A DNA stretch of 49,080 nucleotides from an uncultured Bacteroidota bacterium (lineage in GTDB: Bacteria; Bacteroidota; Bacteroidia; Flavobacteriales_D; Sanyastnellaceae): contig CAIZGX010000041.1 in assembly GCA_903932685.1 (NCBI GenBank), forward strand, positions 1-49,080, in the 5' to 3' direction. This document shows, in pieces, positions 206 through 49,080 of the stretch. Below the pieces are notes generated by a model, which worked only from the letters and a program-made list of their open reading frames with translations, did not search any database and was not told the DNA's origin. How positions within the stretch are numbered: the stretch's first letter is position 1; each line of letters opens with the position of its first letter. The position numbers were made by a program, and so were the translations under genes.

Positions 206-766
206 GATTTGGATTTTTTAGATAAATCAATTTTAGCGGCAGCTGTTTCGAGTTCTATTTTTCTTGAGGTTAGTGAAAGTGAAGAGGAAGACGTGGAACA
301 AGATGCGGAGCAAGATTCTTCGAAAGGTGCTTCGCAAGACCTTCCGGAGGACCTTTCGAAGAACCTTGAAATAGATGTTAAACAAGATGATGCATTATTC
401 ACTTGGTTGAGGAGTGTGAGTGATGAAGAGGGAATAAAAGAACAGGTAAGAGAAGTTAAGAGAGGGGAAGAAGAGGGAAGAATATCGACTGAGTCTGCTC
501 AGCCTTCGTTGGATTTGATAGAAAAATTCATTGCGACGGAGCCGCGCATTACGCCTGGTAAAGTTGAGCAATACACTGGGGTAAGTTTTGCAAAAGAAAG
601 TTTGGAAGAAAATTTCGATTGGGTTACTGAGACCATGGCAAAATTGTATGCAGCTCAAGGAAAAATAGACCGTGCGAGAAAGGCCTACAAGCGACTAATT
701 GAGCTTCATCCAGAGAAAAAAATTCACTTCGAAAATCAACTAAAAGTCCTAAACCAAAGAAAATAA
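2..766 (+). CDS. TPR-type hypothetical protein, 5'-truncated by the window edge, repeat-rich
   Basis: The frame is open from base 2, so the gene runs off the left edge; a TTG at 209 could be taken as a start but nothing supports it. The first 69 residues are tandem peptides: GRQE units and VREVKRGEEE units. A segment around residues 70-85 (LDFLDKSILAAAVSSSIFLEV) looks non-repetitive and conserved. An acidic/Gln linker with the GASQDLPEDLSKNL element follows, then an FTWL motif, another VREVKRGEEE copy, and a C-terminal TPR-like helical pair (MAKLYAAQGKIDRARKAYKR). From memory, flavobacteria carry a TPR protein with an F-x-x-WL motif and this C-terminus just before secG, which fits the position here. 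Function is unknown; envelope biogenesis is a guess from context. The repeats sit in linkers, so the fold may tolerate them. No signal peptide can be judged because the N-terminus is missing. Confidence 0.75.
   Translation, partial: GRQEGRQEVREVKRGEEEGRQEGRQEVREVKRGEEEGRQEGRQEGRQEGRQELREVKRGEEEGRQEVRDLDFLDKSILAAAVSSSIFLEVSESEEEDVEQDAEQDSSKGASQDLPEDLSKNLEIDVKQDDALFTWLRSVSDEEGIKEQVREVKRGEEEGRISTESAQPSLDLIEKFIATEPRITPGKVEQYTGVSFAKESLEENFDWVTETMAKLYAAQGKIDRARKAYKRLIELHPEKKIHFENQLKVLNQRK
326..366 (+). repeat. 41-bp in-frame palindromic element, copy 1
   Basis: This segment matches 26808-26848 in the glycosyltransferase gene at 40 of 41 positions and is read in the same frame (GASQDLPEDLSKN). Its core 330-361 is an imperfect inverted repeat: 12 of 16 base pairs match around a central TCCGGA. 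The flank to the left (311-325, QDSSK) also resembles the flank of the other copy (QDSAK). Confidence 0.85.
446..481 (+). repeat. Detached 36-bp copy of the polypurine repeat inside the same gene
   Basis: These 36 bases are identical to 26-61 and encode VREVKRGEEEGR in the same frame. The copy lies about 240 bp downstream of the main array, between the FTWL motif and the C-terminal domain. Confidence 0.9.
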
Positions 767-3277: not shown

Positions 3278-3817
3278 TTATGGCGTGTATTCTGTTGCGC
3301 CTTCCAAGATGTAATTCATTTGATAAACATCATCAGCATTCAATTTCAATTTACCCTTAAACGTCAAGCGTTCGTCAGTTTTGTAATTGCGATGCTTTCC
3401 AACAAAACGCAAATCAACCACAGACTCCGGACCTCCGCCTCCGCAGAAGAAACAGTTTGCGTATGGGTATTTCGATACGACATAAAAACCAGCGTCGTAA
3501 TCGACCGGAATCAAATATCCCGTAATAAAAATATCTTTTTCTGCAACTGCTTTGACGGAAGCTCCGAATGTTGGCTTCCAATAATAAGCATCCAATTCCT
3601 TCACGTAGATGTCTTTGTAGGTAACGTCTGCCAGTGTCTTCCATGTAATTTCAATGGGCCCCTGCCCTTCTGGTAAAAAAGGAACAATGGTGCTTGGAAT
3701 AGTTCCCAAATCAACACGCTTGTAGGCATGCGCCTTCAATTTTTCTGTTCCCTCAGAAGCATTCAAGAATAAAATTCCAGAGAAAATAAAAGCTAAAAAT
3801 TTGATTGATTTAATCAT
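3278..3817 (-). CDS. DUF3299-like secreted protein linked to the ABC transporter
   Basis: The 179-residue product begins with a signal peptide (hydrophobic residues 5-20, then NAS-EG), so it is exported. The central part holds a TGYLIPVDYDAGFY motif followed by NCFFCGGGGPESVVDL, which resembles the core of the DUF3299 family (G-Y-x-x-P ... C ... N-x-x-V). The CxxC and Gly run could bind metal; that is inference. It overlaps the permease gene end by 8 bp, so it is the last gene of a three-gene operon. From memory, DUF3299 genes in Proteobacteria lie beside a MacB-like ATPase/permease pair in zinc-regulated clusters; the histidine-rich permease here fits that. Function is not established. Confidence 0.6.
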   Translation of the reverse strand: MIKSIKFLAFIFSGILFLNASEGTEKLKAHAYKRVDLGTIPSTIVPFLPEGQGPIEITWKTLADVTYKDIYVKELDAYYWKPTFGASVKAVAEKDIFITGYLIPVDYDAGFYVVSKYPYANCFFCGGGGPESVVDLRFVGKHRNYKTDERLTFKGKLKLNADDVYQMNYILEGATEYTP

Positions 3818-5132
3818 TTGAAAGTGTTTTAGAAATGTCCATGAAGAACGCGCGCAAAGCAGGCAACAACGATGCCACCACGCCGAGCCCCAACGTTATT
3901 CCAACTAAATAATATTCTTGAGGAAGGAAGATCATGGCGTTGAACTCATCGTGGAAGCTATCTTTTGCCATGTCTGAGAGCAAGGTAATTCCTACACGAC
4001 TCAATACAAGACCTATGATTAAACCAAGCGCTACCATGAAGAATCCTTCCAACAGAATAAGAATAAACAACTGAATTCTTCTTCCACCCAAGGTGCGAAG
4101 AATAGCTAACTCGTATTGTCTTTCGCGCAACGCGTTGTAGAGTGAAATGAATACGCTTAAGAAAGAAATAATCATGATAAGAATTGCCACTGCTTTCACA
4201 ACGCTCATGCCTATCCCAAAATTCTCGTTTAGGCGATTGATCTCGATTGCGGGCAAGGCCAATTGCATGTTCGTGTTCTTCACCAATTGCGGAAGAATCA
4301 TTGGAGCCATTGGAAGCCGTTTGATAAGCAGATATGCTGTGACCTCATGATCTTCTTCATGCGCATGTTCTTCCTCTGCGTGCTCGTCTTCGTGCGCATG
4401 GTCGTTGTCTAATGTATCCGCTTCATGTGCATGCTCATCTTCATGAGCGTGCTCAGCGTCGTGCTCCTCCGCAGACACGATTCCGGCATGGCCAGATTCT
4501 TCGTGATCGCCGTGATCATGAACTTCCCAAATAGATTCTACCGGTGTTAAAATAAGTCGATCGATAACGGTTCCACTTGCTTCGTAAATTCCAACCACAG
4601 TGAACAATTGATCGTGCCCCTCCTCCTCTTCGCCTTCTTTGTCTAAACCGTGATTGCTCTTGAATGTCTGTCCTAATTTCAATCCCAATTCTTTCGCTGC
4701 GTATGAACCAACCGTGACTTCAAAGGGCGTTTCAAATACTTTTCCTTCCTTCAATTTCACTTCATAAAATTCCGCGTATCTCGGGGTTGTTCCAACGATT
4801 CTCCATCCTTCATAATTGTCTCCGTATGCCAATGGAATGGCTTCTTTCACTGTCGGATTCTTAATGATTTTTTGCGCTTCTGAAACTTTGATATTTCCTG
4901 TTGGAGCATCTATGTGGTAGACATTGGCAAGTATTAACTGAAGAGGACTTCCCTTCGCGCCTAGCACAAAATCGATGTCTTTGATGTTCTTGTTGAATTT
5001 ATCGCTCAGTTGATTTTCAAGCAGAAACATCATAGAAATTATTCCAACCCCAAACGATAAAAGCAAAAGCGTTAGGGTTGTGGCTCCCGCCTTTTGCCAA
5101 CAATTTTTCCATGCTATAAAAATAATTTTCAT
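3810..5132 (-). CDS. FtsX/MacB-type ABC transporter permease with histidine-rich loop
   Basis: The 440-residue protein has an N-terminal membrane helix (about 18-38), a large extracytoplasmic domain (about 40-305), and three C-terminal helices (about 308-335, 355-385, 405-430), the topology of MacB/LolE/FtsX permeases. The signature LRERQYELAILRTLGGRR precedes the second core helix. Residues 205-263 are a His/Asp/Glu-rich insert with 15 histidines in 59 residues, typical of zinc- or other divalent-metal-binding loops. It follows the ATPase gene by 12 bp. Such permeases usually work by mechanotransmission rather than classical transport (family knowledge). A link to metal handling is inferred from the loop; the substrate is unknown. 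Confidence 0.8.
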   Translation of the reverse strand: MKIIFIAWKNCWQKAGATTLTLLLLSFGVGIISMMFLLENQLSDKFNKNIKDIDFVLGAKGSPLQLILANVYHIDAPTGNIKVSEAQKIIKNPTVKEAIPLAYGDNYEGWRIVGTTPRYAEFYEVKLKEGKVFETPFEVTVGSYAAKELGLKLGQTFKSNHGLDKEGEEEEGHDQLFTVVGIYEASGTVIDRLILTPVESIWEVHDHGDHEESGHAGIVSAEEHDAEHAHEDEHAHEADTLDNDHAHEDEHAEEEHAHEEDHEVTAYLLIKRLPMAPMILPQLVKNTNMQLALPAIEINRLNENFGIGMSVVKAVAILIMIISFLSVFISLYNALRERQYELAILRTLGGRRIQLFILILLEGFFMVALGLIIGLVLSRVGITLLSDMAKDSFHDEFNAMIFLPQEYYLVGITLGLGVVASLLPALRAFFMDISKTLSND

Positions 5133-10016: not shown

Positions 10017-13000
10017 TTATTGGCCACCTTGAGGTTGGGCAGTGTTCGAACCGCCTGAACCGTTCAACGTAAATCGAATGGCAAGTCCGGTTGTAATGTT
10101 CGACGTTTGGAAACTTGTCGAAATCGCCGGTTTATTAATCTGATGATCGTAGAAGAAACGCAGCGTTAGCTTGTCGCTAATTGCCATGTCTGCGCTGGAT
10201 TTAACGCTGAACAATGTTTGTCCCGCTGTAACTTGATTCTGCCGTTCTTCTATTTTTCTGATCAAGGTAAAGTTGTCGCGAACGGTGAAATCGACACGTA
10301 AATTCAGCGTTGACTTTTCAAGTAATTTCACGGGAAGTTTACTTCCCTTTTTTCTTCCGAATGGGTTTGGTAGTTCGGTGATTTTATATCCCAAACCAAT
10401 CACAAAACTGTTACTCTTCGTTTCTGTGATCTGATAATTCGCCATTCCTAGAGCAATGGTACGGTCGCGCTTGTACTCCAATTTTATCAGCGGATCGTTC
10501 ACTTTCTTTGTCTTCAAAGTCATGTCGAATCCAACCAAAGGAGACATGGATTCCGTAAGGGTAACGGTTCCTATTTGTTGTCGGGAAATATAATTCTGCT
10601 CTGTGCTTTGATCTATGGCTGTCGGAAGATTATTAAACTCTTCGTACTTCAAGTTTGTTACGTAGGAAGCGGTAGCAGTAGAGCGATAATTATGAGTTAC
10701 GTTGAACTGCTTGAAATACTTCTTCACTGCAGGCAATTTGGTTAACCCATCATACGTGATTTTCCAGTTTGGCTGTGCCTTGGTCGCAAATGGATTCAAT
10801 GCTACTTCACTTGTTGATCGCCCTGTATAAGCTGCAATGAATGAAGGGATAATTACATTTTGAGAAAGTGATCCGAAACCTTCATAATATCCCGAATCAT
10901 TCGGATTAGCTAGTTGATATGTCTCATTGTTCAAACGGCTAGATATTTCCTTTCTATTCGCTAAGAGTTGATCGAAAATTGGGCTCGCATAGTTGTTCTC
11001 TTTGTCGTCCTTAACAAATGCAGTATTCCAAGTTATTAAAGATGCCGAGAAATTCCCTGTTTCCATTGGTGATTGAAACGTGTAATCGTCAATGGTTGGG
11101 TCATACCTGAAAAACGAATTGTAATTTCTACCTTCCTGACGAGTTGCAGAAATTTCAATTTTGCAGTAACGGAAAGGCTCCAAGTTCATCTTCGCATTCC
11201 AAGTTTCCGTAAAGGTCTCGTTGTACTGAATATTCAAAGATTGACGTTGCACCAACCAGTCGTTTCTTGCCGCATCTGTAGCGAAATTACGTCCTGTAGG
11301 ATTGCCCATTAAATCCGTATTCTGCTGTCCGACCAAGAATCCTATTCCAGGGCCGTTGAATTGCTCATCGAGTCCGAGAATACTTGTATTATTCGCATAT
11401 CCCGGAAGCGATAGCCCTTCATTCTTCGTGTAGCTTCCATTCACGGTACGAACCATCATAATGAATCGCAGAGCAACATCTAATGGATCTACTTTTTCCT
11501 TTTTATCTTTCTTCTTCTTTAAGTCGTCTCCAAAGCCATCTTTCTTGGTTGGATCATCTTTTTTTCCAGCATCAGGTTTTTTTCCAGCATCAGGTTTTTT
11601 TCCTGTTAAAGCCTGTTTCAAACGAGGAACATTGTTGTACAGAGTTTCGAAATTCCCTTGCGCATTCAGTTGAATTTGTCGGCTGTTCTGAATGGTATTT
11701 CCGAGTGTATCCTGAGTAAAGGGTGCGCGATCCCATCTGAATGTTCCTCCGTATCGCGCATCTGCGCTCATAAAGTTCAACAAAGGAAATTTATCTAACG
11801 GTAGTTTATAGGTTACTCCTACATTGTGATTGTAGGTCGTTGTTTCTCCAAAATGTTGAATGTTGCTCCATACAGAATCTTTGTAGGACTCGTACCAATC
11901 CACATCGTTCTTATTTATCACTCCACGCGGTTCTCCGACCAACGCAATGTTGCTCGCTGTGAAATCGGTTTTTAAATTCTTAGTCAAGTCATATTTCATG
12001 GAATAGTTTCTAGTCCAATTCCAATTCTTTTGTGCTTGCGTTTGAATGAGCATATCGCTATAAACTCCGGTTAATTCCAGCGAGTTATTGCGAATGCGAC
12101 TTGTTTCATAAGAGCGATTCATTTCCGTTCTGAAGCTCATTTGTCTGATTCCCAAATAGAAGTTGAATTCCTTGAGCCACTTCAGATATTTCGAAGTTTT
12201 AATGACTGGGAAATTTGCTAACGGTTTGAACTCTTTCGGCTTATTCGTGAAGCTATAGTCGAAGGATCCTTGATATTGTTTTTGCAAACGCCAATCGGTG
12301 TTGATGTCACGGAAGTATGTTTCATTGTAGGCGTATGAAACAGAGAAATTATCTATTCCATAAAACTTTGGCTTGTCTGCGTTCGCTGGAGCAGCTTGTG
12401 TTCCTGGTTTGCCTTTGTCTTCAGCAGTTGGCAAACCCTCTCCTTTCTCTGCACCGTCACTCTTTTTTGGAGCAATTTTCACATTGGTAAAATTGATACT
12501 TCTTCGCTTGGTGTATGTTTGAGATTTTTGTTTTAAAGGTTTGCTTAAAGTAGGCAAATCGGTCATTTGAATGTCTGGTTGAAGCGGACTATATCTTGGT
12601 GTTTGGATATTTTCGGAAAAACCTAAATACATTGGCAATTGAATTCCCCAATCTTTCGGGAAGAATTTACCCAATTGCAATGTGCTGCTTGCATCCAATC
12701 CCATCTTAGTTTCTTGTTGCCTTTGCTGCACACGCTGCTCAATGGCTCCCCATCCAGGAGTACTTATATTTCCTGATACCGCCAAATTTCCAAAATCAGC
12801 CAGTTGCGCATTCAAACTCGCTATAGCTGCAGATCCAGATTTTTCATCAAATTCAGATAGGCGTAACTCATTTACCCAAACAGTTGCACATTTCCCCTTT
12901 CCATCGTCGGTTCCTCCGAACGGATTAGTGTCTTTGTCTGGATTCCGAATACCAATCATCATTGTGGTAATGTTGGCCAAGTTCGGATTTCCCTTTACCG

Positions 13001-16000
13001 AAAGGTGAACGTTGTTGTCTAGAATAGTATCTACAACAGACAACACAGAAGTTGAAGAAGGACGATTAATCTTTAGGTTTTGTAAATCGGCAAGTTTAAT
13101 GTCAAAGTTATTTTCCGCTGGCCAAATTTCGTCGTCATTATTGGTGTACCAGGGTGTTACACTCATTGGAACTTCATACTCGTAATAGTTTTCATTGAAG
13201 TCGGAACCTAATCGAATGAATACGGAAACATCTTTGTCTTTTAATTCTGATTGAATACCCGCAGCTTCGGCGTGAGCGAACATGCGAAGGCGTTTGTATT
13301 GGCGCAAATCATACTTTACATTTTTATATGTTGCACGCGCATCTCCATCTTTCAAATTGCAAACGCTTAACGAGAGTGACTGCTCATTCAAATTTCTCAA
13401 GTTAGCAGAAGCTACGTCTTGTTCGCGAATAATTCCTGGAGGCACAGCATAGGGAACAGGCTCGCGATTTCCGTTTTCTTCAATGTTCACTGCGGCAATG
13501 TTGAAGATTGTTTCCGGGTCGTCGTTAATTTCTTGCTCTTGATTTCCCGCTAAAGTGCTCTCGTATTTCCTCCATTCACCACGTACCAATTCCAACCGTG
13601 CAAAGCGCAAAGTAACCGGCTCTTCCCAACCCTTCAAATACATTCTCAGGTAACGAATAGATCTGAAATCTGCAATACTTCCCACGCGTTTTTCAAATTC
13701 TTTAATTGGAATTTTGAATTGGTACCAGCGAATTTGACGCTCCTCGTTGTTCGCTGTAGTTTTCGTCGTAACGAAGGTGTCTGTGATATAATTTCTTCCC
13801 AAATTAGCATCGCCTAAATCATTTGGACGAAGACTTACCTTGTATTGAAAATAACTTTCAATTGTGTTGAGTGTTATATCTTGGTTAATGTCTTCCGAGT
13901 TCGGAATAGTTGTGGCTGCAATGGGATATCCGTCGGGTGTATTAGTATTTGAGTTTCCCTCGTATCTGTTGAAATTTTTGTAGCGTTCAACGGTGTTCAA
14001 GTTAGCTGCATCGGCCTGTGAACTTCGGAAATAACTGAAGTTATCGGCCGAAGGATCCTGCTGATATTTTGCATAGGCATCGGGAGTTAAAAACCCTTGC
14101 AATTGCAATAACCAGTTCGCAAAATAGGATTGTTCCGCCGTTGAATTCAAACCATCTAAACCAATATCTTGTTGCTCGTAATTTCCAGAGGTGTAGTCAA
14201 ATGCGTTTACCACGTTGAAAGTCGTAGGTGAGGGATAGTTACCCCAAGTTCCTTGCTCAATAGGGAGATCGTTGTTTGCCGAGGGGAATCCATTTTCGAA
14301 ACTCATTTGAGAGTCATTCATGATGTCTTCAGAAACGTTTCCTAAATTGAAATAAAGGTCACCCCCTTGGATATTTTCCGAATCTTCGTGGAATGGATCC
14401 ATTACCCAAAACTGTATGAACTGCACGTTGGAAGTTTCGAAATCAGTTGTTGTTAATGCCCGTTGAATTCCTCCCCATCTCGATGCTGGATCTTTCAATG
14501 TTCCGTTGTCATTCAATCCGGAAGTTCGTCCCGAATAGCCGTTCGGTAATTCATAATTGTACATGCCCCTTTCCTCTGGGTAGTACGTTAAATCTAGGCA
14601 GGTAATGTTGGGTGGTGTGCCCGAAGGTAATTGTCTATTTGGGAAAACTTCCGATTCCAATACCTCACGCATGCGGTGATCACTTTGCATGTCTGCTGTG
14701 ATGTTCGGTGGGGTGTATGAACTGTTTCTGTAAAAAAGTGGATCTATTATATACCAAGATAATTGCGCTCGGTTCGCACCATAAACCAGACTGTCTTCGA
14801 AATCTCCTTCAGGAAAAAGCGCAGACTGCAGTTTCGGCGTTGAGGCCAGGAACCATTGATTTAACGAACGAAGATCTATGACGCTTTGACTTCCTTCGAA
14901 ATCATCGACGTATGCATTTCCATCTTTTGAAATTGCCCGAGAGTGACCCGGGAAAATTTTTGCTGCCTCAAGACTAAATGTTACGGTAGACTTCTCTTTG
15001 GTCTGAATTCCCGGAATTCTATCAATCAATTTTGTAATGAGAGGAACTTCTTTTTGAAATTTCATATCGAAACCAATCATTCCATTGTTGACGGGATCGT
15101 CTCCGGCGTTAACTTTTTGTGTAAGGGGTCGTTCCTTTAAATTCATGAAAGTCGCACCCATTGCTAGATTTTCTGAGAATTTGTAATCGAATCGGCTTCC
15201 CAATAAAGTCTTGTATTGCAGATTAAACATAGAGTTACTTTCTACCGCAACCTTGATCGGTTGTCCTGAACTCATGATGCTTTCATTGAGGATGGTAACT
15301 TTTCCCAAATTATAATTCACCGTGAAATCCGTTCCTTCAACAAGTCTCATTCCTCCCGCTGTAACGGTAACCGCCCCTTGCGGAACGTTCAACGCATTCA
15401 ATGAAATTTCAGAACCCGAAGCGCTTTGGTATTCTCCCTTAATTCTGAATCGATTCAATTGAGGGAACCCAATTTGCGCTGCAGTCTTTGTTGAATCGTA
15501 CAGCGCTTGAAAAACAACTTGCGAAACAACTTGCGCAGCTTGAGGGGTATTTCCTAAACCCGCATAAATCTGATCAGACAAATGCGAGCCAAAGGGTTCA
15601 ACCACTGGGAAAAACACCCTTCCGGTAGAAGCGTCAATTAGTCCGCCCGACGTTGACGCGTTCGGAACAAAGTCAAAGAATCCATCACTCCCAGGCATTT
15701 GTTGCGCATCGATTCTATCGAGATTCATGACTTGAAGCAACAGCTTCCCACTTAACGGTTCTCGAGGAATATAATTCATGTTTACACCCGTTGCTGGGTT
15801 GTTGTACCAAACTTCCAATCTGAATTTTTCTGGAGAAATTCCGAATGATTCGAGGTTGTAAACGTTCTTCATCATGTTCTTCCAAAGCGGAGAAGGATCA
15901 CCATTGGTTAGTTTCACCAAGGTGATTGAAGACTTCAGCATTTTCAACATTAAGGCTTGTGGTGCGGCAACTCCATCTTGCGACAGTGTACCTACTTGAT

Positions 16001-17444
16001 AGGTTTGTCCGTTCAATGTGTACTCATACGAAACCCCCAAAACCTCGGCATTATTCAGTGACTGCTTCAAGGAGATGAATCCTAGACGTGCGTTGTAGCT
16101 GTATTCAGACGGAGTCAGTTTTCGGGCGTTTCCTACGCGCTCGTAGTGAATTCCTTGACGCATTCCGTAACCTAAAGCTTGAATGGCGGCATTGGCATTT
16201 GAGAAATCTAAGATGTTCTGGTTATTGCTTAAAACATTGAAGAGGTTGTTGTTCTCATTGTCTGGATTTTGAAGTTGCCCTGGGCTAATCAGAGATGAGT
16301 TATTGTAATCTGTAGCCATGTATTGGGAGTTCTCACCCAAATCAGTAAATGCCATAATATTTCTAACATCTTGCGTGTTGGCTTGTTGATTCACTACCCA
16401 AACCTCAATACGCGTAATGTTCGCACCGCTATTAACAACAGGCAATGAGGCTAGAGCATTGTCGTAATTGTCTCTGAAGAATCCCGAAAGAAAGTAGTGT
16501 CTATTCGCTTCGTAATTGTCAGCTGCAATATCAAATCGTGTGGTTTGCGCACCGCCTTGAACAGTGATTTCTTTTCGTTCACCTTTTTGTTGGGTAAGAA
16601 TTGTGGTGTTCTTTAGCTTTCCCCATTGCGTTTCAATTTTGGCTCCGAACAAACCAAGACTACCGGGCATTAAGCTTCCGGTAAGAGGCAATGCTACGGT
16701 TCCCATTTCAATTTTACGCATGACTTGGTCTTCATCACCGGTGTATTCCACCTTCATATTGTTCTCAAAATCAAATGTGCTTTCGGTGTTGTAATTCACC
16801 TTTAGTTTCATCTTGGTACCGATATTACCAATGACATTCATTTGAATTTTCTGATCGAAATTAAAGTTGGTGTTCTTCCTCTGGCGCTCGGGAATACGAG
16901 GATTTTCGGTACGCTGAGAATTCAAACCGAACGTTAATTCGGCCGAACCTTGAGGACGGATTTCAATCTCATTCGACCCGAAAATATGTTCGAAATTGTC
17001 TCCACCAACTTTAATCACGGGAGCAAATTCTTTGTTCGCAGCAGCCTTGTCGTCTTTGATTTTGTTCCAATACTTGGAAACATTTTTATCAAGTTGAAAA
17101 TTTAAAAAATCCGCTTGATCCATCGTTGTGGCTCTCCGATAATCGAACTTGTCCCCAACTTTCTGAATAACTTCATAACGACCCGTTTCAGGATTGTATT
17201 CAACAGAATAATGAATATTATCGGGGAGTGGAATTTCAATTCCGCCATTGCCTTCACTGGGTGAAGGGCTGTCTTCGTTCGGCCAAATAGGAGTTACGGT
17301 ATCTGGCGCGAATACGAAATTGTGATTTGATTTAGCAATTACTCTCGTTTGAACAGAAGTATTTGCCCAAGCCAACCAACCAGAAACACAAAGGGCCATT
17401 ACGAAAATGGCTCTTGATAGGAGGCGGAGGACAACTTCTTTCAC
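10017..17444 (-). CDS. sprA: T9SS outer-membrane translocon protein SprA
   Basis: SprA is the very large beta-barrel that forms the type IX secretion channel in the outer membrane and is needed for gliding in motile relatives. Size (2475 residues) and content fit: a signal peptide (about 1-28), repeated SprA N-terminal-type blocks such as LTFGLNSQRTENPRIPERQ and GSLGLFGAKIETQWGKL, the VYVDDFEGSQS-like motif (AYVDDFEGSQSVIDLRS), and a long Tyr/Asn-rich barrel. Two low-complexity inserts are present: one near residue 1650 (Lys/Gly/Pro-rich) and one near 1945-1990 with tandem KKPDAG. The gene follows ruvA by 4 bp in a maeB-ruvA-sprA operon. The usual downstream gcvH is not present here. Confidence 0.96.
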   Translation of the reverse strand: MKEVVLRLLSRAIFVMALCVSGWLAWANTSVQTRVIAKSNHNFVFAPDTVTPIWPNEDSPSPSEGNGGIEIPLPDNIHYSVEYNPETGRYEVIQKVGDKFDYRRATTMDQADFLNFQLDKNVSKYWNKIKDDKAAANKEFAPVIKVGGDNFEHIFGSNEIEIRPQGSAELTFGLNSQRTENPRIPERQRKNTNFNFDQKIQMNVIGNIGTKMKLKVNYNTESTFDFENNMKVEYTGDEDQVMRKIEMGTVALPLTGSLMPGSLGLFGAKIETQWGKLKNTTILTQQKGERKEITVQGGAQTTRFDIAADNYEANRHYFLSGFFRDNYDNALASLPVVNSGANITRIEVWVVNQQANTQDVRNIMAFTDLGENSQYMATDYNNSSLISPGQLQNPDNENNNLFNVLSNNQNILDFSNANAAIQALGYGMRQGIHYERVGNARKLTPSEYSYNARLGFISLKQSLNNAEVLGVSYEYTLNGQTYQVGTLSQDGVAAPQALMLKMLKSSITLVKLTNGDPSPLWKNMMKNVYNLESFGISPEKFRLEVWYNNPATGVNMNYIPREPLSGKLLLQVMNLDRIDAQQMPGSDGFFDFVPNASTSGGLIDASTGRVFFPVVEPFGSHLSDQIYAGLGNTPQAAQVVSQVVFQALYDSTKTAAQIGFPQLNRFRIKGEYQSASGSEISLNALNVPQGAVTVTAGGMRLVEGTDFTVNYNLGKVTILNESIMSSGQPIKVAVESNSMFNLQYKTLLGSRFDYKFSENLAMGATFMNLKERPLTQKVNAGDDPVNNGMIGFDMKFQKEVPLITKLIDRIPGIQTKEKSTVTFSLEAAKIFPGHSRAISKDGNAYVDDFEGSQSVIDLRSLNQWFLASTPKLQSALFPEGDFEDSLVYGANRAQLSWYIIDPLFYRNSSYTPPNITADMQSDHRMREVLESEVFPNRQLPSGTPPNITCLDLTYYPEERGMYNYELPNGYSGRTSGLNDNGTLKDPASRWGGIQRALTTTDFETSNVQFIQFWVMDPFHEDSENIQGGDLYFNLGNVSEDIMNDSQMSFENGFPSANNDLPIEQGTWGNYPSPTTFNVVNAFDYTSGNYEQQDIGLDGLNSTAEQSYFANWLLQLQGFLTPDAYAKYQQDPSADNFSYFRSSQADAANLNTVERYKNFNRYEGNSNTNTPDGYPIAATTIPNSEDINQDITLNTIESYFQYKVSLRPNDLGDANLGRNYITDTFVTTKTTANNEERQIRWYQFKIPIKEFEKRVGSIADFRSIRYLRMYLKGWEEPVTLRFARLELVRGEWRKYESTLAGNQEQEINDDPETIFNIAAVNIEENGNREPVPYAVPPGIIREQDVASANLRNLNEQSLSLSVCNLKDGDARATYKNVKYDLRQYKRLRMFAHAEAAGIQSELKDKDVSVFIRLGSDFNENYYEYEVPMSVTPWYTNNDDEIWPAENNFDIKLADLQNLKINRPSSTSVLSVVDTILDNNVHLSVKGNPNLANITTMMIGIRNPDKDTNPFGGTDDGKGKCATVWVNELRLSEFDEKSGSAAIASLNAQLADFGNLAVSGNISTPGWGAIEQRVQQRQQETKMGLDASSTLQLGKFFPKDWGIQLPMYLGFSENIQTPRYSPLQPDIQMTDLPTLSKPLKQKSQTYTKRRSINFTNVKIAPKKSDGAEKGEGLPTAEDKGKPGTQAAPANADKPKFYGIDNFSVSYAYNETYFRDINTDWRLQKQYQGSFDYSFTNKPKEFKPLANFPVIKTSKYLKWLKEFNFYLGIRQMSFRTEMNRSYETSRIRNNSLELTGVYSDMLIQTQAQKNWNWTRNYSMKYDLTKNLKTDFTASNIALVGEPRGVINKNDVDWYESYKDSVWSNIQHFGETTTYNHNVGVTYKLPLDKFPLLNFMSADARYGGTFRWDRAPFTQDTLGNTIQNSRQIQLNAQGNFETLYNNVPRLKQALTGKKPDAGKKPDAGKKDDPTKKDGFGDDLKKKKDKKEKVDPLDVALRFIMMVRTVNGSYTKNEGLSLPGYANNTSILGLDEQFNGPGIGFLVGQQNTDLMGNPTGRNFATDAARNDWLVQRQSLNIQYNETFTETWNAKMNLEPFRYCKIEISATRQEGRNYNSFFRYDPTIDDYTFQSPMETGNFSASLITWNTAFVKDDKENNYASPIFDQLLANRKEISSRLNNETYQLANPNDSGYYEGFGSLSQNVIIPSFIAAYTGRSTSEVALNPFATKAQPNWKITYDGLTKLPAVKKYFKQFNVTHNYRSTATASYVTNLKYEEFNNLPTAIDQSTEQNYISRQQIGTVTLTESMSPLVGFDMTLKTKKVNDPLIKLEYKRDRTIALGMANYQITETKSNSFVIGLGYKITELPNPFGRKKGSKLPVKLLEKSTLNLRVDFTVRDNFTLIRKIEERQNQVTAGQTLFSVKSSADMAISDKLTLRFFYDHQINKPAISTSFQTSNITTGLAIRFTLNGSGGSNTAQPQGGQ
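11566..11601 (-). repeat. 18-bp tandem repeat inside sprA
   Basis: Two perfect 18-bp copies (11566-11583 and 11584-11601) encode KKPDAG repeats in a Lys-rich loop of SprA. A partial third follows. It is in frame and likely surface-exposed or periplasmic. Confidence 0.8.
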
Positions 17445-26507: not shown

Positions 26508-27455
26508 ATGAAAGTGAGTATCATAACTGTTAGTTACAACAGTGCGAAAACCATCGGTGATACGATTTCTTCCGTTCGAAAACAATCTTATAAGAACATC
26601 GAATACATTGTTGTTGATGGAAATTCCACTGATGGAACGGTAGAAATTGTGAAGCAATTTATGGATGCTTTGCAAGATTCTGCGAAAGATGCTTCGCAAG
26701 GTCGTTCCGAAGATGCTTCGCAAGGTCGTTCCGAAGGTGCTATGCAAGGTCGTTCCGAAGGTGCTTCGCAAGGTCGTTCCGAAGGTGCTATGCAAGGTCG
26801 TTCCGAAGGCGCTTCGCAAGACCTTCCGGAGGACCTTTCGAAGAACCTATTTAATGTTGCTTCACAAGGGGTAGTGACGAAATTCTTATATGAAAAAGAT
26901 AATGGGATTTATGACGCCATGAACAAAGGGTTGGCCCTTGCAACTGGAGATATTATTGGCGTTTTGAATAGCGATGACTTTTACTGTGCAGATGATGTGA
27001 TTGAACAGGTGGTTCTTGCCTTTCAAAAAAATAACACAGATTGCCTTTATGGTGATTTGAATTATGTAGATCCGATTGACACGGCTAAAATTGTTCGGAA
27101 ATGGCGAAGTGGCTCATATATCAAAGAGAACTTTTTGAAAGGATGGATGCCTCCACACCCTACCTTTTTTGTGAAGAAATCTTGCTATGAAAGCTTCGGA
27201 GCTTTCGAAACTCAATTCAAAAGCGCGGCAGATTACGAGTTGATGCTTCGATTTCTTTTCAAGGAATCGTGCAGTGCACAACACCTTCCGAAAGTAATGA
27301 TTCACATGCGCGCCGGAGGCGTGAGTAATCTTAGTTTGAAAAATCGCCTTCGTGCCAATCGCGAAGATCGAATGGCTTGGAAAATGAATGGTTTAAAACC
27401 AAAGTGGTTCACGCTGCTGCGTAAACCACTTTCTAAATTGACACAATATTTTTAA
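26508..27455 (+). CDS. Family 2 glycosyltransferase with an in-frame repeat insertion
   Basis: The 315-residue protein is a GT-A fold transferase. Motifs are KVSIITVSYNSAKTI (2-16), VVDGNSTDGT (about 36-45), EKDNGIYDAMNKG (about 127-139), GVLNSDD (about 148-154, the DxD-type site), then PHPTFF, and a final basic region. It probably adds a sugar to a surface polysaccharide. Between the DGT motif and EKDNG lies an insertion of about 60 residues (53-115) made of eight-residue repeats such as GASQGRSE, where relatives have a short loop of about 20 residues. No membrane segment is seen. No other sugar genes lie next to it, so the acceptor is unknown. It ends convergently 2 bp from DUF6089. Confidence 0.9.
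   Translation: MKVSIITVSYNSAKTIGDTISSVRKQSYKNIEYIVVDGNSTDGTVEIVKQFMDALQDSAKDASQGRSEDASQGRSEGAMQGRSEGASQGRSEGAMQGRSEGASQDLPEDLSKNLFNVASQGVVTKFLYEKDNGIYDAMNKGLALATGDIIGVLNSDDFYCADDVIEQVVLAFQKNNTDCLYGDLNYVDPIDTAKIVRKWRSGSYIKENFLKGWMPPHPTFFVKKSCYESFGAFETQFKSAADYELMLRFLFKESCSAQHLPKVMIHMRAGGVSNLSLKNRLRANREDRMAWKMNGLKPKWFTLLRKPLSKLTQYF
26664..26807 (+). repeat. 24-bp tandem repeat array in the glycosyltransferase gene
   Basis: Five units start at 26688, 26712, 26736, 26760 and 26784, preceded by a diverged unit at 26664. They encode D/G-A-S/M-Q-G-R-S-E. Units three to six alternate GAM, GAS, GAM, GAS, which shows a 48-bp higher-order period. Each unit contains an imperfect palindrome bounded by CTTCG and CGAAG. 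Confidence 0.9.
26808..26848 (+). repeat. 41-bp in-frame palindromic element, copy 2
   Basis: It differs from 326-366 by one base (C for T at 26810, synonymous). The palindromic core is 26812-26843. It ends the 24-bp array and resembles a diverged unit of it. Confidence 0.85.
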
Positions 27456-48848: not shown

Positions 48849-48878
48849 TATTTCAACAAAGTTGAAATACGCTTTGCG
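48849..48878. repeat. Two hairpins adjoining the 64-bp array
   Basis: A 9-bp stem with an AAA loop (48849-48869) and a 3-bp stem CGC/GCG with a TTT loop (48870-48878) directly precede the 64-bp array. Confidence 0.7.
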
Positions 48879-49080
48879 ATGACACAACAAAGTTGTGATG
48901 ACAATCTGCGATTGATGACAGCGGAGCTGATGACCCTGCGGGATGACACAACAAAGTTGTGATGACAATCTGCGATTGATGACAGCGGAGCTGATGACCC
49001 TGCGGGATGACACAACAAAGTTGTGATGACAATCTGCGATTGATGACAGCGGAGCTGATGACCCTGCGGGATGACACAAC
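48878..49080. repeat. 64-bp tandem repeat made of four nested-size hairpins
   Basis: Three identical units (48878-48941, 48942-49005, 49006-49069) and an 11-bp partial unit run to the window edge. In each unit the hexamer GATGAC separates four perfect inverted repeats of 13, 11, 9 and 7 nt, each with a 3-nt loop: ACAAC/GTTGT, AATC/GATT, AGC/GCT, CC/GG. The flanking C and G add one more pair to each stem. Open frames in this array are repeat artefacts, not genes. Confidence 0.93.

Follow-up and report, generated by a model that had tools for sequence, protein, structure and literature searches.

Why should two genes whose proteins are otherwise unlike carry nearly the same 41 bp, palindromic and read in the same frame? 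The question is raised by a stretch of 49,080 nucleotides (hereafter the window), which forms contig C41 in a draft genome (G000) of 2.37 Mb and 84 contigs. The segments were found where the preliminary description had placed them (326-366 and 26808-26848). They agree at 40 of 41 bases, the sole mismatch being T/C at base 3, each encodes, in the frame of its own ORF, the peptide GASQDLPEDLSKN, and the likeness of their left flanks (QDSSK and QDSAK) is genuine. By Pfam, one host has weak TPR matches and the other is a family 2 glycosyltransferase; on this basis the hosts are unrelated, as had been claimed, and common ancestry of the two proteins was rejected as the source of the match. Neither is the match an isolated pair. 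A search of the full genome with a 32-bp core, at most 3 mismatches being allowed, returned 13 copies including the two reported ones and 0 in the reversed-pattern control, which is more than chance; together with the 100 three-linker matches and the linker-free search given below, this led us to reject a lone pair of copies or a coincidence.

The segment had been described as a palindromic element of 41 bp. The palindrome is real, yet the repeated unit is a 12-bp module composed of a linker and a micro-hairpin. Both copies are embedded in longer arrays of 12-bp periodicity (288-386 and 26661-26867, Table 1), and the 41-bp palindrome is the point at which the array turns from forward modules (linker AAGRT) to reverse modules (AYCTT). 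With its flanks, the segment in the TPR gene forms one long hairpin, and the single-stranded DNA fold of positions 300-372 was better than that of shuffled sequences (z -4.53 on the plus and -4.76 on the minus strand), none of 200 shuffles being as good on either strand. Two unlinked head-to-head arrays (C49:15381-15562 and C64:131046-131117) carry the same larger central hairpin CGCTTCGCGTAGCG at their forward-to-reverse switch.

Table 1. Positions in the window of the arrays, the two 41-bp segments and their host genes.
Feature	Position	Strand	Description
Host 1, TPR protein gene	209..766	+	ORF open at contig start (2-766); TPR matches weak, below Pfam cut-offs
AAGRT array in TPR gene	288..386	+	Forward modules, then reverse modules, then one forward module
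41-bp segment, copy 1	326..366		Forward run ends here; head-to-head junction AAGACCTT, then reverse modules
Host 2, family 2 glycosyltransferase gene	26508..27455	+	PF00535, E 9.9e-28; 315 aa with insert
Glycosyltransferase insert	26661..26867	+	207 bp = 3 + 17 x 12 bp; TCTGCGA, GCTTCGC, CGTTCCG, GCTATGC and others, then reverse modules
41-bp segment, copy 2	26808..26848		Again a forward-to-reverse junction, 40/41
Second-family array	48878..49080	+	GATGAC linker; cores ACAACaaaGTTGT, AATCtgcGATT, AGCggaGCT, CCtgcGG; runs into contig end

In the first family, the 12-bp unit is formed of the linker AAG-R-T and a 7-nt micro-hairpin of the form x y N N N y' x', the stem of which has two variable pairs and one constant pair. 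The pattern AAGRTN7AAGRTN7AAGRT was matched 100 times in the own genome (57 forward, 43 reverse; reversed control 0), and these matches yielded 144 modules, among which 51 cores are distinct. In 130 of the 144 modules the two pairs of the stem were both complementary, against a mean of 24 and a maximum of 41 in 2000 shufflings of the right halves, and in 41 of the 51 distinct cores (shuffle mean 7.6, maximum 16); the fully paired stem types were GC, TC, CC, GT, CG, AC, CA and TT. Over the 51 distinct modules the stem covariation score was 0.656 versus 0.183 +/- 0.036, a value reached by 0 of 500 shuffles, and 94.1% of the stem cells paired, versus 31-61% when the partner was slid. Stem changes in distinct modules were two-sided in 41 cases and one-sided in 3, with 9 unpaired and 4 G-U cells among 153; the two-sided changes and the few G-U cells point to Watson-Crick pairing of DNA. 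When the linker was left free, in a search of contig C1 of a congener (G008) and of G000 stretches partly picked for arrays, AAGAT and AAGGT led with 31 and 27 distinct spacers that are palindromic, against 11 for the linkers next in rank and 4 for the best one in shuffled sequence.

Preferences are seen for the closing pair and, less strictly, for the loop. The closing pair was C-G in 91 of the 130 palindromic modules (28/41 distinct), and a GNA loop was read on one or the other strand in 99 of the 130; with 22 of 41 distinct cores, GNA/TNC loops are the majority and not the rule. A full stem was missing in 14 of the 144 modules, and one of these imperfect cores, GTTTTTC, is shared by three species. 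In contig C1 of G008 the bare pattern AAGRTN7AAG was not enriched (146 versus 156 in the complemented control), and its palindromic subset was (51 versus 3-6 shuffled). The long forward run at 26674-26809 folded no better than shuffles (z +0.54 and -1.14) in an energy model for which a 3-bp stem counts as weak. Five contigs (C11, C41, C49, C64 and C68) end in arrays or within about 250 bp of them, hence array counts are lower bounds.

A second family, with GATGAC as its linker, closes the window. The first 76 bases of this end array (48878-48953) fold as a string of hairpins in single-stranded DNA (z -2.15 and -2.30), each lengthened by the C and G of the linker. The corresponding three-linker pattern was matched 102 times in the own genome, with 0 matches for its control; among nine genomes, control matches appeared only in G008 (3, versus 153 real ones). 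The lines listed for G000 and G006 supplied 80 distinct spacers. Micro-palindromes made up 70 of these, built on 28 stems 2-5 bp long, where shuffling gave a mean of 17.3 and at most 30. Loops of 3 nt were found in 56 of these 70, closed by C-G in 49/56 and of the GNA or TNC type in 37/56. The signal was weaker in the fetched stretches alone, with 25 of 31 distinct spacers in G000 (shuffle maximum 19) and, in contig C1 of G008, 9 of 11 distinct spacers palindromic (shuffle maximum 9). DNA hairpins with GNA loops and at least two G-C pairs have been described as extraordinarily stable, with a Tm of 78 C for GCGAAGC (PMC4686876).

How far do these arrays reach? Among 114 family genomes scanned, the AAGRT three-linker pattern had 39-171 matches in each of eight out of nine genus members (controls 0-5) and 0 in the ninth, G005, which is 95% complete. 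The other 105 family genomes, from 20 genera, had 0-3 matches with controls up to 7, and in the 21 positives outside the genus, of one locus each, no match had both spacers palindromic. Across 399 genomes of the order, a four-linker AAGRT pattern was positive in 13, the same eight and five others, whose listed matches were either simple repeats or coding ones; a single spacer, in one of the five genomes, was palindromic. The GATGAC pattern was positive in 31 of the 399, again the same eight and 23 others, and the 30 listed lines checked for these 23 held no palindromic spacer. Both families occur in the same eight of the nine genus genomes, and the matches listed elsewhere among the 399 are without such arrays. 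A wide distribution was rejected, as just three of the 116 stretches among the matches listed (L173, L192 and L218) had at least three distinct palindromic cores; these belong to the Flavobacteriales MAGs ZE-3nov15-71 and Jr-28aug17-172, so the named records with such arrays do lie in the Bacteroidota, a phylum for which the preliminary description knew of no family of this kind. A phage origin was likewise rejected, since among the matches listed in two viral scans, at least 120 stretches in each, none of 239 loci had at least three distinct palindromic AAGRT spacers or at least two GATGAC ones. In G033, G034 and G036, of another genus in the same family, short non-palindromic tandem repeats around GATGACAGATTACAG / GATGACGG were seen at several sites; perhaps this is another repeat expansion which shares the GATGAC word.

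Within the genus the arrays differ from species to species. In an alignment of eight glycosyltransferase orthologues, the insert between fixed flanks measures 3 + 12n bp, with 1 module in G006, 9 in G007, 11 in G012, 12 in G010, 17 in G000 and 22 in G011. The insert of G008, given as 54 bp by the script because a flanking codon differs, reads as 3 + 4 x 12 bp against the alignment. The orthologue of G005 has no modules and does not carry the shared peptide; it is the most divergent, with 54% identity to the window's protein versus 75-87% for the others. Neither outcome that the preliminary description had named as speaking against its reading was thus observed, the copies being far more than two and the peptide being missing from this most distant congener. 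No orthologue was obtained from G009 (71% complete). The TPR orthologue of G008 has an array at the same site, made of other modules. Over orthologous arrays, 30 of 45 compared modules differ. Twelve of them have a single change, which falls on one of the four stem positions in 0 cases and on the central base of the loop (loop position 2) in 6.

Stretches of G000 were also compared with contig C1 of G008. At C8:7036-7098 and at 13849-13930 of C70, an array is found in G000, while G008 is without a three-linker run and is shorter by 60 bp and 95 bp, respectively, with both flanks aligned in each case. At C53b, inside a GNAT gene, G000 is 42 bp longer across the aligned block; at C27 the two genomes differ as well, and both have modules. 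The site C53:31,700-31,738 was discarded as a clean insertion, as its match to G008 is limited to the left flank and about 9 bases to the right. Beside the same arsR gene, G000 carries a GATGAC array and G008 an AAGRT array, one flank being comparable because the window's contig ends. The preliminary description had suggested a mobile or copying element, and its mobility is something that we only infer, from sites with modules in one congener and none in the other, where either a gain or a loss could have taken place.

The preliminary description had further presented an in-frame coding element. The in-frame position in unrelated genes stands, yet this is not a coding element as such, for in the stretches that were analysed intergenic copies were no rarer than intragenic copies. 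In stretches partly picked as array-rich, and with ORFs called by a simple script, 38 arrays were divided into 11 intragenic, 9 gene-edge and 18 intergenic; the array of the TPR gene sits among these 18 because its ORF runs off the contig, and it counts as intragenic, while the arsR-linked array of G008, one of the 11, probably lies upstream of the true start. Modules of the AC..GT type, which give a stop in the usual frame, were found in 0 of 69 intragenic and 3 of 67 intergenic modules, which is the expected direction with too few cases to count. Among 10 array-host ORFs, Pfam matches included a glycosyltransferase, a phosphoglucomutase/phosphomannomutase, a GNAT acetyltransferase, DUF6150, a shikimate dehydrogenase-like protein, a Pmp3-like protein and, weakly, TPR, with 2 of the 10 ORFs without a match. 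The array of the phosphoglucomutase/phosphomannomutase occupies residues 196-223, between domains I and II. The predicted structure of the glycosyltransferase was too poor to use (mean pLDDT 52), residues 63-119, most of the insert, being among the stretches below 50.

Other coding repeats were noticed in the window. The TPR gene has another in-frame tandem repeat (GRQE / VREVKRGEEE) at positions 1-205 and about 446-493, purine-rich and not hairpin-like, and it is present with a different copy number in the TPR orthologue of G008. A perfect 18-bp coding repeat (GKKPDA) is found at 11559-11603 within the gene of a 2475-aa giant protein (10017-17444), presumably SprA-like, and histidine/glutamate-rich coding repeats at 4346-4455 lie within ORF 3810-5132, which we take to be ABC-transporter-permease-like.

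Do the arrays belong to a system already known? A feature-by-feature comparison was made with REPs, RPEs, BrickBuilt and PARCEL, on the passages available from the sources (PMC3733652, PMC2229807, PMC4596501, PMC2996958, PMC8266576, PMC12306157, PMC5771137). The micro-hairpin arrays work like the in-frame RPEs of Rickettsia and have the organisation of REP/BIMEs, yet they depart from each of these in defining features. The palindromes of Rickettsia, Wolbachia and Methanocaldococcus are described, for particular lineages, as lying in frame in conserved protein genes; at least one enzyme that hosts such an insert remains active, and RPEs are found between genes too (PMC2229807, PMC2996958). In-frame insertion in conserved genes is shared by our arrays (the glycosyltransferase orthologues; the PGM/PMM and GNAT ORFs). 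However, an RPE is a palindrome of 105-146 bp with terminal inverted repeats (PMC2229807, PMC2996958), whereas the present unit is a 12-bp tandem module with constant linker and covarying stems, with 1-22 modules at the one glycosyltransferase site.

REPs consist of a short palindrome and an unpaired tag, are organised head-to-head and have some intragenic copies, and Bacteroidetes are among the hosts of CGTC REPs (PMC3733652). All three traits are seen in our arrays as well, although head-to-tail runs are the main arrangement here. Unlike GTAG REPs, the linkers are AAGRT and GATGAC, the palindrome has no GTAG tag at its foot, and the Y1 transposase gene is not associated with the repeats (4 of 9 draft genomes, 6 loci, no modules nearby). 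Against the 5-13 bp given for GTAG REP stems in Table 1 of PMC3733652, the AAGRT stem has two variable pairs plus one constant pair, and the GATGAC stems have 2-5 bp plus the constant C-G, just the longest reaching 5-6 bp. The complement of GATGAC, GTCATC, resembles a shortened CGTC-AT of the CGTC REPs, but the base before GTC belongs to the variable stem. For CGTC REPs, a stem of 8-9 bp, a loop of 4-5 nt, an unpaired motif (CGTC/TGTC/CCTC) and negligible head-to-tail dimers are described (PMC3733652); the GATGAC family, in contrast, has stems of 2-5 bp, 3-nt loops in 56/70 and abundant three-linker head-to-tail matches.

BrickBuilt, a MITE minisatellite of Porphyromonas gingivalis, has a 23-nt unit without spacers, a leader and a tail, and is described as always intergenic (PMC4596501). 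It resembles the present arrays as a short tandem repeat at many sites of a Bacteroidota genome and differs from their 12-bp unit and intragenic copies, and the available passages describe no covarying hairpins for it. PARCEL comprises tandem coding repeats with dyad symmetry in their DNA, as here, built on a 25-residue amphipathic motif (DUF285) in genes without assigned function (PMC2996958). Our repeat is of 4 residues and has intergenic copies, of which the passages on PARCEL describe none, and DUF285 had no Pfam match in the 10 host ORFs scanned. Among the open-licence papers listed, as covered by titles, abstract starts and passages, no description was found of arrays with a constant linker and covarying micro-hairpins.

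The likeliest reading, in our view somewhat more probable than not, is that both families represent genus-specific, DNA-level repeat DNA, preserved in the form of single-strand mini-hairpins, with whole modules being gained or lost. The sequences themselves show constant linkers, covarying stems, a preference for C-G closure, less strict GNA/TNC loops, forward-to-reverse switches, 12-bp differences by whole modules at one coding site, sites with modules in one congener and without them in another, and a location both intergenic and in frame. Under such a mechanism the sequence would be copied and maintained at the DNA level via a folded single strand, which could be the lagging or a displaced strand or a repair intermediate. 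The complementary variable stems, the near-exclusive Watson-Crick pairing, the C-G closure and the many GNA loops argue for a folded single DNA strand being copied or kept. Arrays would lengthen and shorten through slippage or recombination at identical linkers, for which the 12-bp steps at a fixed site argue. New sites could be seeded by template switching or by a single-strand-specific enzyme reading linker and hairpin, as RAYT transposases do for REPs. Host proteins would tolerate the insert, with no need of a benefit to the protein, and in-frame copies would survive because 12 bp equal four codons and long array stretches are open on both strands. The search for an enzyme that moves the modules identified none, so the step that makes new complementary stems is one that we infer. 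For repetitive DNA in vitro, it has been proposed that polymerases elongate hairpins (PMC10853772).

Two sources of such a process were searched for and rejected. A retro-element (DGR, retron or group II intron) was rejected as the PF00078 reverse transcriptase was unmatched in all nine draft genomes of the genus. The hairpin nuclease subunit SbcD (TIGR00619) had no match in the nine genus members; loss of SbcCD as the specific cause was dismissed, as SbcD is likewise unmatched in the array-free G005 and in most of the family. With SbcD above the cut-off in only 5 of 114 family genomes, its loss is at most a permissive background, and palindromes may be tolerated family-wide.

Rather unlikely, in our opinion, are arrays of binding sites for a host protein of nucleoid organisation, replication or DNA uptake, in which the stems would keep the strand unstructured between constant linkers. 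Such a role would agree with the constant linkers and variable cores of both families, as well as with neighbouring linkers tending to be alike (104/144 versus 76 expected) and neighbouring stems tending to differ (10/100 the same versus 17 expected). Yet copy number varies several-fold among species, G005 has no arrays at all, and the glycosyltransferase arrays are unconserved in length and content.

We regard as distinctly unlikely that the modules are REP-type elements moved by a RAYT (Y1) transposase, with the linker as tag or guide and the micro-hairpin as the recognised palindrome. TnpA-REP proteins do bind single-stranded hairpins together with a flanking tetranucleotide (PMC8266576), the head-to-head organisation is like that of BIMEs, and Y1_Tnp genes are present in 4 of the 9 genus genomes, which are drafts of 71-99% completeness. 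However, none of the 6 Y1 loci, of 2.1-3.3 kb, has a module, and G010, 96% complete and with 171 matches, is without a Y1 match; the missing GTAG tag and stems far below REP length add to this.

A function at the RNA level, where strings of mRNA hairpins would act on termination, stability or translation, seems very improbable. Although 14 of the 18 'intergenic' arrays are no more than 42 bp away from the boundary of a called ORF (weak, as intergenic gaps are short) and the GATGAC array folds as a hairpin string under DNA parameters, the arrays occur in both orientations, some within genes, and G-U, which RNA would accept, fills just the 4 of 153 cells counted above. Hardly credible, finally, is a coding minisatellite of the ordinary kind, under selection for a repeated hydrophilic tetrapeptide (DASQ/GRSE/DLSK). 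Despite the 4-residue periodicity, the in-frame cases and growth by unit duplication visible as higher-order repeats of 48, 36 and 24 bp, the same modules stand between genes and reversed, with other peptides, which largely refutes it, and the covariation of stems at the DNA level links positions that belong to different codons.

Returning to repeat DNA kept as single-strand mini-hairpins, it is possible, and we advance it with considerable doubt, that self-complementarity beside a fixed linker is inherited in place of a sequence. A process of the genus would then write or renew the changing mini-hairpins next to constant linkers of 5-6 nt; it would serve both families, which would have arisen together after the split from G005.

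The C-G-closed and often GNA loops suggest that the structure of single-stranded DNA is what is kept. The genomes of this genus group hold hundreds of self-pairing units in which self-pairing stays while the letters change. In-frame palindromes known earlier, from Rickettsia, Wolbachia and Methanocaldococcus, are longer as far as the available passages describe them; here the unit is minimal and its number varies between congeners. As linker and stem can be separated and the congener G005 is free of arrays, the spread of selfish palindromes becomes directly testable in this genus, and so does the way in which coding genes gain low-complexity segments.
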